From Gemmatimonadota bacterium (GTDB lineage Bacteria; Gemmatimonadota; Gemmatimonadetes; Gemmatimonadales; Gemmatimonadaceae), in NCBI GenBank assembly GCA_003134685.1, contig PLCA01000002.1, positions 459,966 to 523,965 of the forward strand: 64,000 bases of DNA, given 5' to 3'. The position numbers and the translations under genes were made by a program. How positions within the stretch are numbered: position 1 is the first letter of the stretch; every line of letters begins with the position of its first letter. This document shows, one piece after another, positions 4,369 through 41,155 of this stretch. Under the pieces are notes generated by a model. It worked only from the letters and a program-made list of their open reading frames with translations. It was not told where the DNA came from and did no database searches.

Positions 4369-7300
4369 ATGCAACGACTCATCCCGCTCGCGCTTCTTCT
4401 CGCTTTCGTCTGCGTCCCCATCGCCGCACGCAGCCAGGAGTCTCGCGTACTCGTCTTCTCCAAGACGGCCGGATTCCGCCACAGCTCCATCGGCGTCGGC
4501 CTCGCCGCTATCCGAAAGCTCGGACAGGAGAATGGGTTCTCCGTCGACGCGACCGAAGACGCCAGCGCGTTCACCTCGAAGAATCTCGCGCGATACCGCG
4601 CCGTCGTCTGGCTGAACACAACCGGCGATGTGCTGAACGCCGCGCAGCAGGACGATTTCGAGCGCTACATCCAGGCCGGTGGCGGATACGTGGGAGTTCA
4701 TTCCGCTGCGGACACAGAGTACGACTGGCCGTGGTACGGCAGACTCGCGGGCGCCTGGTTCAACGGTCATCCTGGCAATCCCAACGTTCGCAAAGCTACG
4801 TACCGGGTTCTCGACAAGAGTCACCCGTCCACCGAGGGATTTCCCGACACGTTGGTGCGAGAAGACGAGTTCTACAACTTCAAGTCGATCGATCCGACAA
4901 TCCACGTGCTCATCGAGATCGACGAAAAAAGTTACGAGGGCGGGACGAACGGTGACCACCATCCAATGAGCTGGTACCACGATTTTGATGGCGGGCGGGC
5001 GTGGTACACGAACATGGGTCACACCGAGGCTACCTATTCCGAGCCGCTCTTCCTGCGGCACCTCCTCGGCGGACTACGCTACGCGATGGGGACGGGGAAG
5101 ATCGACTTCGGCCGAGCGCGGCCAGAGGAGAATCGCTTCACGAAAGTAGTTCTCGCCGAGAAGCTGGACGAACCGGTCGAGCTCGCCGTCCTTCCCGGCG
5201 AGCGTGTGCTCTTCATCGAGCGACACGGTTACGTCAACCTGTATTCGCCGGCGACCGGTCGCGTGAGACGGATCGCGACGATTCCCGTCAGCACGAAATA
5301 CGCGGACAGCAGTCAGGCGGAGGACGGCCTGCTCGGACTCGCCGCCGATCCCAACTTCGCCACGAACGGCTGGGTCTACATGTACTACTCGCCTGCCGGC
5401 CCCGAGTCGAAGAACGTGCTCGCTCGCTACCATATGAAGGGAGACTCGCTCGAGCTCGGCTCGCGCAAGATTCTTCTCGAGATTGGAACGCAGCGTCTGA
5501 AATGCTGTCACACCGGCGGCTCCATTGCCTTTGACGGCAAAGGCAACCTCTACGTCTCTACCGGCGACAACTCGAACCCGTTCGCATCCGGCTACGCACC
5601 CGTCGACGAACGGCCCGGGCATATGCCATGGGACGCGCAGAAATCCTCCGCGAACACGAACGACCTTCGCGGCAAGATTATCCGCATCCATCCCGAGCCC
5701 GACGGTACGTACGCCATCCCCAAGGGAAATCTCTTTCCGCCGGGGACGGCGAAGACGCGACCGGAGATTTACACGATGGGCCACCGCAATCCCTATCGGA
5801 TCTCGGTGGACTCACACACCGGATTCCTCTACTGGGGCGACGTCGGTCCCGACGCGAACGTTGACTCCGTCGGACGCGGCCCGCGCGGCTATGACGAGAT
5901 CAATCAGGCGCGGAACGCCGGCAACTACGGCTGGCCGTACTTCGTTGCGAACAACCAGGCGTATTATAGAACCACTTTCTCGGATTCGGTGACAGTGGTG
6001 CCGGGAGAGAAGTTCGATCCCGCGCATCCAATCAATCGCTCACCCAACAACACCGGCCTCACCGAGCTGCCGCCCGCACGCGGCGCTTACATCTGGTATC
6101 CGTACGCAGCGTCTCCGGAGTTCCCGATTGTTGGCAGCGGCGGACGTGCATCCGCGGCAGGCCCGGTATTTCATAGGAATGATTTCCGCAACGCGGCCAG
6201 ACCTTTCCCGCAGTACTACGACGGAAAGCTTTTCATCTACGAATTCATGCGCCACTGGATCATGGCAGTCAGTATGGACACAAATGGTGACCTTGTGTCC
6301 ATAGAACGCTTCATGCCTAACGCGAAATTCAGTGCTCCGATCGAGATGGAGTTCGCGCCGAGCGGAGATATGTATGTTCTGGAGTACGGTACCGTCTGGT
6401 TCAAGGGCAACGACGACGCGCGGCTCGTTCGCATCGAGTACAACGCAGGCAATCGCAAGCCAATTGTAGCTGTTGCGGTTGATCCGGCGGCCGGCGCGCT
6501 TCCGATGCGTGTGAAGCTTTCCTCGGCGGGCACCATGGACCTCGACGAGGATTCACTGAAATACACGTGGACCATCTCGCGGAAAGGCGGTGCCGTGTTG
6601 CAGCAGCTGAACGAACCCAACCCGTCGTTTACCTTCACTCGGCCGGGTGCGTACACGGCGTCGCTCACAGTGACCGATGCTCATGGCGCGCACTCGACTG
6701 CAGACGTGCCGATCGTGGCCGGCAACGAGCCGCCCAACGTCGGTATCGATCTTGTTGGCACCAACGGGACGTTCTTCTTCCCCGGAATTCCGGTCCGCTA
6801 TGCGGCGCAGGTGACGGATCGTGAGGACGGCTCGCTGAGGAGCGGAACCATCCCGGCGGGTCGAGTGAGTGTAAGCGCGCAGTATCTGAAGGACGGGTCC
6901 GCGTCTAGCGGAATCGCGACGGGGAGGAGACTGATCGAGGGAAGTGACTGCCTATCCTGTCACCAGTTCAATAGGAAATCCATCGGCCCCGCGTACGTGG
7001 ATGTCGCGGGGAAGTATCACGACGACAAAACGGCGACAGCGCGTCTCGTCCGGAAGATCCGTGAAGGGGGATCCGGCGTGTGGGGCAAGGTTGCGATGGC
7101 CGCACACCCCGCGCTCACCAACGAGCAGGCATCGGCGATGGTCGCCTACATCCTGAGCCTCGCCGACCCGAAGACGAGCGCGCCCTCACTTCCTGTCCGA
7201 GGCGCATATGTCCCGCCAGCCGGGTCGGGTGATGCACCCCAGGGGGCACTCGTGCTGCGCGCATCGTACGCCGACCGCGGCGCGAACGGAATGCCCGCGA

Positions 7301-39268: not shown

Positions 39269-40414
39269 ATGCGAATGTTAGTTCTTGGCGCCGGGCTGCA
39301 GGGCTCCGCCTGCGCGTATGATTTGTTGCAAAATCCTGATGTAAAAGAAGTTCGCCTCGCCGATCTTCACACTGGCCACCTCCCGCAATTCCTCGCGCCG
39401 TTCTCCGGCGAGCGCCTGATCTTCACGCCGCTCGACGTGCGCGACAAGGAAGCGGTGCTCGCGCTGATGCGGCAATCCGACGCGGCGATGAGCGCGATCC
39501 CGTACTACTTCAATTTCGAGCTGGCCCAGCTTGCCGTCGAAGCCGGCGTGCACTTCTCGGATCTCGGTGGAAATACCGATATCGTGGTCAAGCAGAAGAC
39601 ACTGGACGCGGCCGCGAAGAAGAAGGGGATCACCATTATCCCCGACTGCGGCCTGGCGCCCGGAATGGTCAACATCCTGGCGGAGTACGGCATCCGGCAG
39701 CTCGATACGGTCGAGACCGTTCGCATTTTCGTTGGCGGACTGCCGCAGCGTCCCGAGCCGCCGCTCAACTATCAGATCGTCTACTCGCTGGAAGGAGTGC
39801 TTGACTACTACACGACGCTCTCGTGGGTGCTGCGCAAAGGGAAGCGCACGCAGGTAAAAGCGCTGTCGGAGCTCGAGGTCGTCAACTTCGGCGGATCGCT
39901 GGGCGAGCTCGAGGGTTTTCACACGGCGGGCGGCCTTTCGACGATGGCGTCCCGTTACGAAGGAAAGATTCCGACGATGGAATACAAGACGCTCCGCTAT
40001 CCCGGCCACGCGCGCATCATGGAAGCAATTCGAGAGCTGGGCCTGCTCGAGTTGACCCCAGTCGACGTGAAGGGAGTGAAAGTCGTTCCGCGCGATCTCG
40101 TGGTGGCCGCCATGGGTCCGCGTCTCACCAAACCGAACGCGTACGACCTGGTCGCGCTCCGCGTCTACACCGAGGGCACCAAGGACGGGAAGCCCAAGCG
40201 GATCGGGTGGGAGATGGTGGACTACTACGACGAGGAGAACGGCATCAGCGCCATGGAGCGCTCGACCGGCTACTCGCTCTCGATCACGGGACAGATGCAG
40301 GCGCGCGGAGAGATCGGAAAGACGGGCGTATTCACTCCCGACGAGGCAATGCCGGCGGAGAAGTACATCCGGGAGCTGGCCGCGAGAGGGGTTATGATCA
40401 GGGAGATGCGCTAG
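39269..40414 (+). CDS. saccharopine dehydrogenase-family oxidoreductase (lysine 6-dehydrogenase-like)
   Basis: A 381-residue NAD(P)-dependent enzyme. The N-terminal Rossmann motif GAGLQGSACAYDLL (7-20) is followed by VRLADL and DVRDKEAVLALM. The C-terminal domain includes IPDCGLAPGMVNILAEYGI and EGFHTAGGLSTM, as in the saccharopine/lysine 6-dehydrogenase group. It probably oxidises lysine or a related amino acid, but substrate is not proven. A 273 bp inverted-repeat region follows it. Confidence 0.85.
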   Translation: MRMLVLGAGLQGSACAYDLLQNPDVKEVRLADLHTGHLPQFLAPFSGERLIFTPLDVRDKEAVLALMRQSDAAMSAIPYYFNFELAQLAVEAGVHFSDLGGNTDIVVKQKTLDAAAKKKGITIIPDCGLAPGMVNILAEYGIRQLDTVETVRIFVGGLPQRPEPPLNYQIVYSLEGVLDYYTTLSWVLRKGKRTQVKALSELEVVNFGGSLGELEGFHTAGGLSTMASRYEGKIPTMEYKTLRYPGHARIMEAIRELGLLELTPVDVKGVKVVPRDLVVAAMGPRLTKPNAYDLVALRVYTEGTKDGKPKRIGWEMVDYYDEENGISAMERSTGYSLSITGQMQARGEIGKTGVFTPDEAMPAEKYIRELAARGVMIREMR

Positions 40415-40451
40415 AACTGATATCTATCGCGACCCAGCACCGCGAAGTGCT

Positions 40452-40667
40452 AACTGAACGGGATCCGAGATCTGGCAACTGCAAGTACAACTGAACGGGA
40501 TCCGAGATCTCAGAAGCGTAGATATCAGGTTTTAGTAACTACGCTGCGACGTATCTGAGTGGCGTCATCGCACAGGCGGTCCGTTGTACTCGGATATGCG
40601 AGCAATATGGTCAGAGCGCGGTGACTACCTACTGAGATCTATGCCTCTGAGATCTCGGATCCCGTTC
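40452..40667. repeat. long inverted repeat with an extra direct copy, between convergent genes
   Basis: The left arm 40493-40530 (GAACGGGATCCGAGATCTCA...) and right arm 40628-40667 are complementary at about 33 of 38 positions, with a loop near 100 bases. A partial third copy of the arm (AACTGAACGGGATCCGAGATCT) lies at 40452-40473. A smaller inverted pair GATATCTA/TAGATATC is nested at 40424-40525. It could fold as a large hairpin (bidirectional terminator) or be a small non-autonomous mobile element. No ORF is supported in it. Confidence 0.75.
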
Positions 40668-40687
40668 TTTTTCAGTCGATGCCGGGT

Positions 40688-41104
40688 TCAATGTTCAGCG
40701 AGCACATAGATGGCAGAAAGAACCAGAAGAAAGTACGGCACGAGCGCAGCCGCGCCGGCGTAATCCTTCGATACGCGTTGACCGAAGAAGAGCGCGATGA
40801 TGTTGACGCCAGCGACCACCGCGCCGAGATATGCCACCACGGAATCGTGGGTCAGAAGCAACAGCGCACAACCGACCGCGCTCAGTGCCCCGGCGGACAC
40901 CTCGAGGATCGTGATGACGATGAACATCGGGCCGACCGTGCCGGCAAGCGGACTCCGCGCGAAATGCTCATCGAGGTACGCTCGATTTCCTCTTCGATCC
41001 ACGACCTTGTCTATCCCCGACTGAAGAAACAGCACGGCGAGAAACGCGGAGACGAGTATCTGCAGGATGTGTGATGCCGCGTCGGGCGAGTGCACATTTG
41101 GCAT
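40688..41104 (-). CDS. DoxX-like small membrane protein
   Basis: About 138 residues from ATG 41104 (MPNVHSPDAAS...). An earlier in-frame start at 41155 gives an unlikely Cys/Asn-rich leader. There are four hydrophobic helices (about 15-33, 60-80, 85-105 and 115-135), and FLAVLFLQSGIDKVVDRRGN in the first one resembles DoxX-family proteins. The role is unknown; DoxX proteins have been linked to respiration and redox stress. It is divergent from the L,D-transpeptidase gene and ends next to the inverted repeat. Confidence 0.7.
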   Translation of the reverse strand: MPNVHSPDAASHILQILVSAFLAVLFLQSGIDKVVDRRGNRAYLDEHFARSPLAGTVGPMFIVITILEVSAGALSAVGCALLLLTHDSVVAYLGAVVAGVNIIALFFGQRVSKDYAGAAALVPYFLLVLSAIYVLAEH

Positions 41105-41155
41105 GTAGTTATTGTAGCATGATCTGGCGGACACTGTCCAATTCGGAAACGGCAC

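Follow-up and report, generated by a model that had tools for sequence, protein, structure and literature searches.

The closest described systems are the intervening sequences (IVS) of 23S rRNA, from which the widespread IVP/S23 protein family is mainly known. In Coxiella the IVS carries an S23p gene with tandem heptamers of GACAGAT upstream of the ORF, and it is cut by RNase III (PMC4990558). The 23S IVS is also covered in PMC2672173, and IVP has been found in rRNA insertions of CPR bacteria (PMC11270868). PF05635, the Pfam family of IVP, is related to Avd (PMC10053308). Eighteen IVP genes have been recorded in cas loci (PMC3936711). A four helix bundle gene flanked by guanylate kinase and nicotinate-nucleotide adenylyltransferase genes has been described (PMC5524665), and four helix bundle genes were among the strain-specific genes of an Arthrospira strain (PMC8700078). 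These and the following papers are cited from partial text.

Heptameric repeats have been described separately. Xanthomonas has GGGAATC repeats, of which Xcc contains 70 inverted pairs, and Nostoc has GGGGA(C/T)T heptamers; both are mostly unconnected with mobile elements (PMC4692102). TAACTGA repeats were found in Beggiatoaceae (PMC4679880), and the Geobacter metallireducens families GGGACCG and MTYCTGA were interpreted as regulator sites (PMC2700814). The terms "helix bundle" and "S23" do not occur in the available portions of PMC4692102 and PMC4679880, nor "helix bundle" in that of PMC2700814. A link between IVP and inverted heptamer arms was not found in the available portions of the open-access literature; subscription papers lay mostly outside the search, so its novelty is provisional.

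The window, the whole 64,000-nt stretch of DNA that was analysed, contains a repeat which is very probably a miniature IVP hairpin element that lacks the gene. Repeat search, folding and genome copies place the whole miniature, a hairpin with outer tandem units and without an assigned strand, at 40415-40672. The sequence-only reading had set its limits at 40424-40667; the repeat itself is real and the wider bounds are the better ones. No gene lies inside. The inverted repeat has arms of 58 nt that are 79% complementary, with 59 nt between them. The 5' arm of the hairpin core (40493-40550, + strand; repeat search, folding and lag analysis) consists of degenerate heptads in which a TCAG/TAG motif recurs. 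It is followed by the loop (40551-40609, +) and by the 3' arm, its reverse complement (40610-40667, -; repeat search and folding). The 38-base arms with about 33 matching positions that had been described earlier correspond to 40493-40530 and 40630-40667, where 33/38 matches and a 99-base loop were counted by eye. The third partial copy reported in front of them is due to a 22-nt stretch, the arm unit AACTGAACGGGATCCGAGATCT, being directly repeated without mismatch, with an outer tandem copy at 40452-40473 (+) and an arm-proximal second copy at 40489-40510 (+). GGATCC and AGATCT palindromes are present in each arm unit, as had been noticed.

The element begins straight after the stop codon of a saccharopine-dehydrogenase-like ORF (39269-40414, +). 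This ORF faces a 155-aa ORF with a weak, below-cutoff MauE match (40688-41155, -), which bears out the convergent setting that was first proposed. Folding of both strands, which the sequence-only reading had suggested, gave structures far more stable than shuffles. The RNA fold of 40415-40690 had a free energy of -121.5 kcal/mol (z -7.1; 0/200 dinucleotide shuffles equally stable) and the opposite strand had a z of -6.9. Two simple identities were considered and rejected. A known RNA family was set aside as there were no Rfam matches at gathering score in the whole 64,000-nt window, and a simple terminator was set aside as a consensus scan of the element found no terminator-like site. The repeat is not a strict 23S rRNA IVS, since it has no Rfam match and sits between protein genes.

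Lag 7 was the highest lag overall in the window element, and 15/2000 shuffles reached the same height. Within the single arms lag 15 was highest in each, and the arms are just weakly heptameric; together with the missing gene, this counts against the reading as an IVP miniature. The heptamer arms of the window copy are described as degenerate, while its relatives have clear inverted tandem heptamers.

The genome of the window (G000; C-numbers denote its contigs, other G- and L-numbers the other genomes and the loci compared) is 3.63 Mb in 16 contigs and 98.4% complete. A 276-nt element query gave 82 BLAST HSPs in this host genome. The 18-nt arm unit had 93 matches at up to 3 mismatches, compared to 0 for a reversed control pattern. 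The family occupies approximately 30 places with non-homologous flanks, and the 29 beyond the window were inspected. Most are copies of approximately 190-360 bp with a hairpin core like that of the window. Tandem arm units (~30 bp) in variable number flank most copies on one or both sides. The place at C5:667902 consists of one arm unit alone, and the copy at C5:95526 is one-sided. Five of the 29 places (L070, L079, L080, L086 and L087) have related GGGCGGGAGGCGTC-type arms. Lag 7 was highest in 19/27 host-genome copies. Flanking genes were crude longest-ORF calls, by which 22/29 places were free of any overlapping ORF of at least 90 aa. With the other seven excluded, the gene setting was tandem in 11 places, convergent in 8 and divergent in 3. 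Single copy had been named as the outcome that would refute a mobile or REP-like element; the copies are many, dispersed and on unrelated flanks, so that refutation fails.

The tandem units, palindromes, intergenic position and copy number recall REP, BIME and REPIN arrays. Such arrays go with a RAYT (Y1 tyrosine) transposase. An array upheld by such an enzyme, which had been listed among the first candidates, is nevertheless extremely improbable. The host genome has no match to PF01797 (Y1_Tnp/RAYT), while the same search was positive in 5/14 control genomes, and both the units and the hairpin are much longer than REPs.

The copy at C12:570138-570796 has a 141-aa ORF where the loop would be. 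This ORF matched PF05635 (23S_rRNA_IVP) in Pfam with an E value of 1.8e-28 and was above the cut-off for TIGR02436, four helix bundle protein. Solved relatives are XCC0516 (2gsc, E 2.7e-35) and 2rld. PF05635 had eight matches in the host genome, representing seven loci, as two matches are halves of one broken gene. This is the single IVP gene at C5:601122-601465 (L095/L096), a broken full-length element. All seven loci are bracketed by inverted repeats, which fall into three arm types. The IVP gene in the loop of one copy, together with the inverted repeats at 7/7 IVP loci, makes a miniature the best reading of the window repeat.

Full-length elements with a PF05635 gene in the hairpin loop include C12:570138-570796, C11:129951 and C12:645229. 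Gene-less miniatures of approximately 190-260 bp are known for two of the three arm types. The second arm type (ACTACCGGCCGGGGGC) has both IVP-bearing and gene-less copies, the latter of approximately 190 bp. This second type, that of the IVP locus at C5:596419, recurs gene-less at C16:139310-139501 and C12:586603-586797, and also in G156. With these miniatures, two arm types independently show IVP-bearing and gene-less forms. A single IVP carrier was present among the copies with closely related GGATCC-type arms, which counts against the reading as a miniature. The IVP loci L089 and L094 have related GGGCGGGAGGCGTC/GGGGTGGGAGGTGTC arms. Where dN/dS was measurable without saturation (L097/L099) it was 0.06 for IVP, indicating purifying selection. 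A separate dispersed repeat family was observed at L257:4620-4790 and 4936-5150 (G000:C5:599620-600150). Its pieces occur in G159, G161 and G046 as inverted pairs with a few hundred bases between them, a 205-bp stretch (4577-4782) being replaced by approximately 50 bp in G159, and the family has no heptameric look.

The window element is short and ORF-less, has inverted repeats and is present in many copies on unrelated flanks, all features of a MITE. An ordinary MITE would have arisen by deletion from an insertion sequence with a DDE transposase and would be moved by that transposase, with IVP as a chance passenger. Size, terminal inverted repeats, dispersal and absence of an ORF agree with this. 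However, no longer copy with the ends of the window element and a gene other than IVP was found among the 82 host-genome HSPs; in this assembly, 98.4% complete, the IVP-bearing copy was the only larger relative found with those ends. IVP also lies in hairpins of three host arm classes and of many phyla, which makes a chance passenger unlikely. An ordinary MITE is thus very unlikely. The MITE-like form suggested by the sequence-only reading holds for the dispersed copies and their unrelated flanks, but not for a transposase-bearing parent, as the larger relative carries IVP/S23.

The gene-less IVP hairpin miniature was also supported by IVP loci beyond the host genome. PF05635 was present in 125/151 genomes sampled from the order. 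Inverted flanks were tested against mononucleotide shuffles at 37 loci of the order, seven from the host genome and 30 others, and shifted placements on the same contigs were used as additional controls for this set and for the multi-phylum set below. The flanks exceeded the 99.9th percentile of shuffles at 34/37 loci and at 0/141 control placements; at the other three loci they were not significant. Period 7 was the highest lag on 38/74 flanks of these loci and on two control flanks.

When a collection of 84,980 species was scanned with one degenerate motif, 587 matches were confirmed. The best 80 of these were used as the multi-phylum set, which is not unbiased for that reason. They belong to many phyla and include ANME-1 archaea. 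L181 and L234 were excluded for short flanks, and 78 loci were tested. Inverted flanks were significant at 69/78 of these loci drawn from the best 80 of 587, compared to 2/134 controls, and not significant at nine. In the same best-80 set the highest period was 7 or 14 on 116/156 flanks (20/268 control flanks), and a few loci, for example from Brucella and ANME-1, had 8-mer arms. The IVP gene of L281 (Geobacter sp. AOG1, G172) is flanked by inverted 6-mers of the AAAGGT type, not 7-mers. The arm heptamers differ between IVP loci, yet they agree within each locus. The best partner of a 5' flank among the 78 3' flanks was its own at 58/78 loci of the best-80 set, and the observed mean own-flank pairing was reached by 0/10000 permutations. 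A weak heptamer motif near TCAGGNG was found in the 5' arms, with its complement in the 3' arm. Its information was 2.79 bits over 61 arms compared to a maximum of 2.17 among 20 column-shuffled sets, and 2.66 bits in a 58-arm set compared to 1.99 shuffled. Inverted arms, in most cases built of tandem 7-mers, generally enclose the PF05635 genes that lie outside rRNA.

Near the IVP locus L159 an inverted pair of Acido-Lenti-1 RNAs (RF01687) was observed at L159:4892-4937 (-) and 5084-5129 (+), approximately 150 bp apart. The Acido-Lenti-1 RNA could itself form the end of an element.

IVP loci on closed plasmids gave the same picture. At 12/12 plasmid loci, chosen by the authors from 24 records, the inverted arms beat all 200 mononucleotide shuffles each. 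Phage records gave no match. In three cyanobacterial plasmids (L316, L317 and L324) the IVP hairpins were observed amid cas genes on the same strand; in two of these loci the neighbours are cas6 and cas4, in the third cas10 and cmr3. This placement suggests that these three hairpins are insertions inside cas operons.

The heptamer arrays could instead be primary, with slippage and template switching making inverted arrays anywhere and an IVP gene being captured between them. Many bacteria have an excess of heptameric repeats, for which slippage has been proposed in the portions available of PMC4692102 and PMC4679880. Nostoc sp. CHAB 5715 (G169, the genome of L214) has 424 exact triple GGGGANT heptamer matches, compared to 0 for the reversed control, and just 8 IVP matches. 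Against such an origin, IVP is centred in matched arms at most loci of the best 80 of 587, over many phyla, and each IVP locus has its own heptamer. For two arm types, miniatures occur alongside copies that bear IVP, and control placements on the same contigs were without arms. Captured genes between primary arrays are considered unlikely.

The history of the element was followed in related genomes. The family was present in 9/61 genomes, host included, and all nine are among 19 genomes of the same genus. The window site was compared in the 18 other genomes of the genus, 11 of which were uninformative. In G161, G046, G156 and G155 a hairpin is present at the orthologous site with its arms altered on both sides. 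The site is empty in G157, with approximately 22 bp between the two genes. It is rearranged in G104, with tandem GCGGACT-like units, and in G159 a contig break falls within the element. The copy at C8:55135 is missing at the orthologous site in G046. In G159, where unknown bases adjoin, the copy at C8:58969 carries fewer tandem units. These differences in presence and absence, as read from aligned sites, support past mobility. Flanks of the empty sites are approximately 74-85% identical, and at such identity insertion boundaries and target-site duplication are not definable. G046 (93% completeness) has 17 element matches and 0 IVP matches, so IVP is either dispensable for keeping copies or was lost.

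Covariation was assessed over 26 copies and orthologs. The RNAalifold consensus split the inner stem into small hairpins, and the outer helix alone was used for the pair count. In this outer arm 9/25 pairs were changed on both sides, and 0/500 shuffles had as many, although the helix was drawn from the same alignment and the slid controls favour it somewhat. Own arms paired only slightly better than swapped arms of the same 26 sequences (28.5 compared to 26.5; 179/20000 permutations), which indicates that much of the hairpin in this recently spread family is inherited. The structured RNA of the sequence-only reading thus stands as a hairpin kept through compensatory change, and does not stand as a member of an Rfam family.

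Alternatively, the element could have been domesticated to serve the two convergent genes, as a bidirectional terminator or as an RNA structure at their 3' ends, a role that is compatible with the preferred explanation. In favour of this, the element directly follows a stop codon and has convergent genes on its two sides, its hairpin is kept at the site in G161, G046, G156 and G155, and 9/25 pairs show compensatory change. However, it is missing in G157, no terminator-like site was found by the consensus scan, and other copies lie between tandem (11/22) and divergent (3/22) genes. Such a role is therefore quite unlikely as the explanation.

The explanation considered likely overall is a gene-less IVP hairpin miniature together with the following mechanism. 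A neighbouring transcript would read through the element and its RNA would form the long hairpin. By analogy with the Coxiella 23S rRNA intervening sequence, RNase III may cut the transcribed hairpin, which would make insertion after stop codons or within operons cheap. IVP from full-length copies would bind the repeated hairpin, as RNA or as single-stranded DNA. Binding could help the hairpin to spread, with miniatures mobilised in trans. Slippage would alter the heptamer number, and fold-back template switching would keep the arms matched. IVP is not known to have catalytic activity. The IVP-assisted spread of the element is possible, and is proposed here at somewhat less than probable.

The general tie between IVP and heptamer hairpins is of interest beyond the window. 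Most non-rRNA IVP genes lie inside inverted-heptamer hairpins, which are thereby a likely substrate for the IVP protein. Hairpin insertion is a simple account of IVP genes in operons, for example in cas loci. IVP hairpins are also a candidate source of bacterial heptameric repeats and may be the source of the long-noted excess of 7-letter repeats in bacterial genomes. A joint reading is offered tentatively. IVP/S23 genes might constitute an unrecognised, near-universal class of recombinase-less selfish hairpins with inverted-heptamer arms matched by fold-back copying. Remnants without the gene might then be the source of much of the bacterial heptamer excess, and IVP genes in cas loci would be insertions and not immune components. 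STRR is the name applied to heptameric repeats of the Nostoc type. If the joint reading is true, the heptamer excess concerned would include the Nostoc STRR-type repeats, GGGAATC of Xanthomonas and the "global regulator sites" of Geobacter.

Several known systems resemble the element in part. REP, BIME and REPIN arrays are likewise extragenic palindromes in tandem, but here there is no RAYT and the hairpin is much longer. MITEs share short length, absence of an ORF, terminal inverted repeats and many dispersed copies, whereas the parent of the window element carries IVP and no transposase. Heptameric SSR and STRR families also consist of tandem heptamers, often in inverted pairs (PMC4692102, PMC2700814, portions available), and a Nostoc heptamer of the GGGGA(C/T)T type was observed here to flank IVP genes. 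Avd of diversity-generating retroelements has a four-helix-bundle fold related to IVP (PMC10053308, portions available). The 23S rRNA IVS of Leptospira and Coxiella, with short ORF-less forms in Salmonella, is likewise a hairpin whose loop contains a PF05635 gene. It occurs in ORF-bearing and ORF-less versions, as here (PMC4990558 and PMC2672173, portions available). In contrast to the IVS, LSU rRNA was absent from all of the best 80 of 587 IVP loci, in other phyla; the window element is intergenic, the families are dispersed and inverted heptamer arms lie on both sides. What is new here is this non-rRNA variant of the intervening-sequence kind and its gene-less miniature form.
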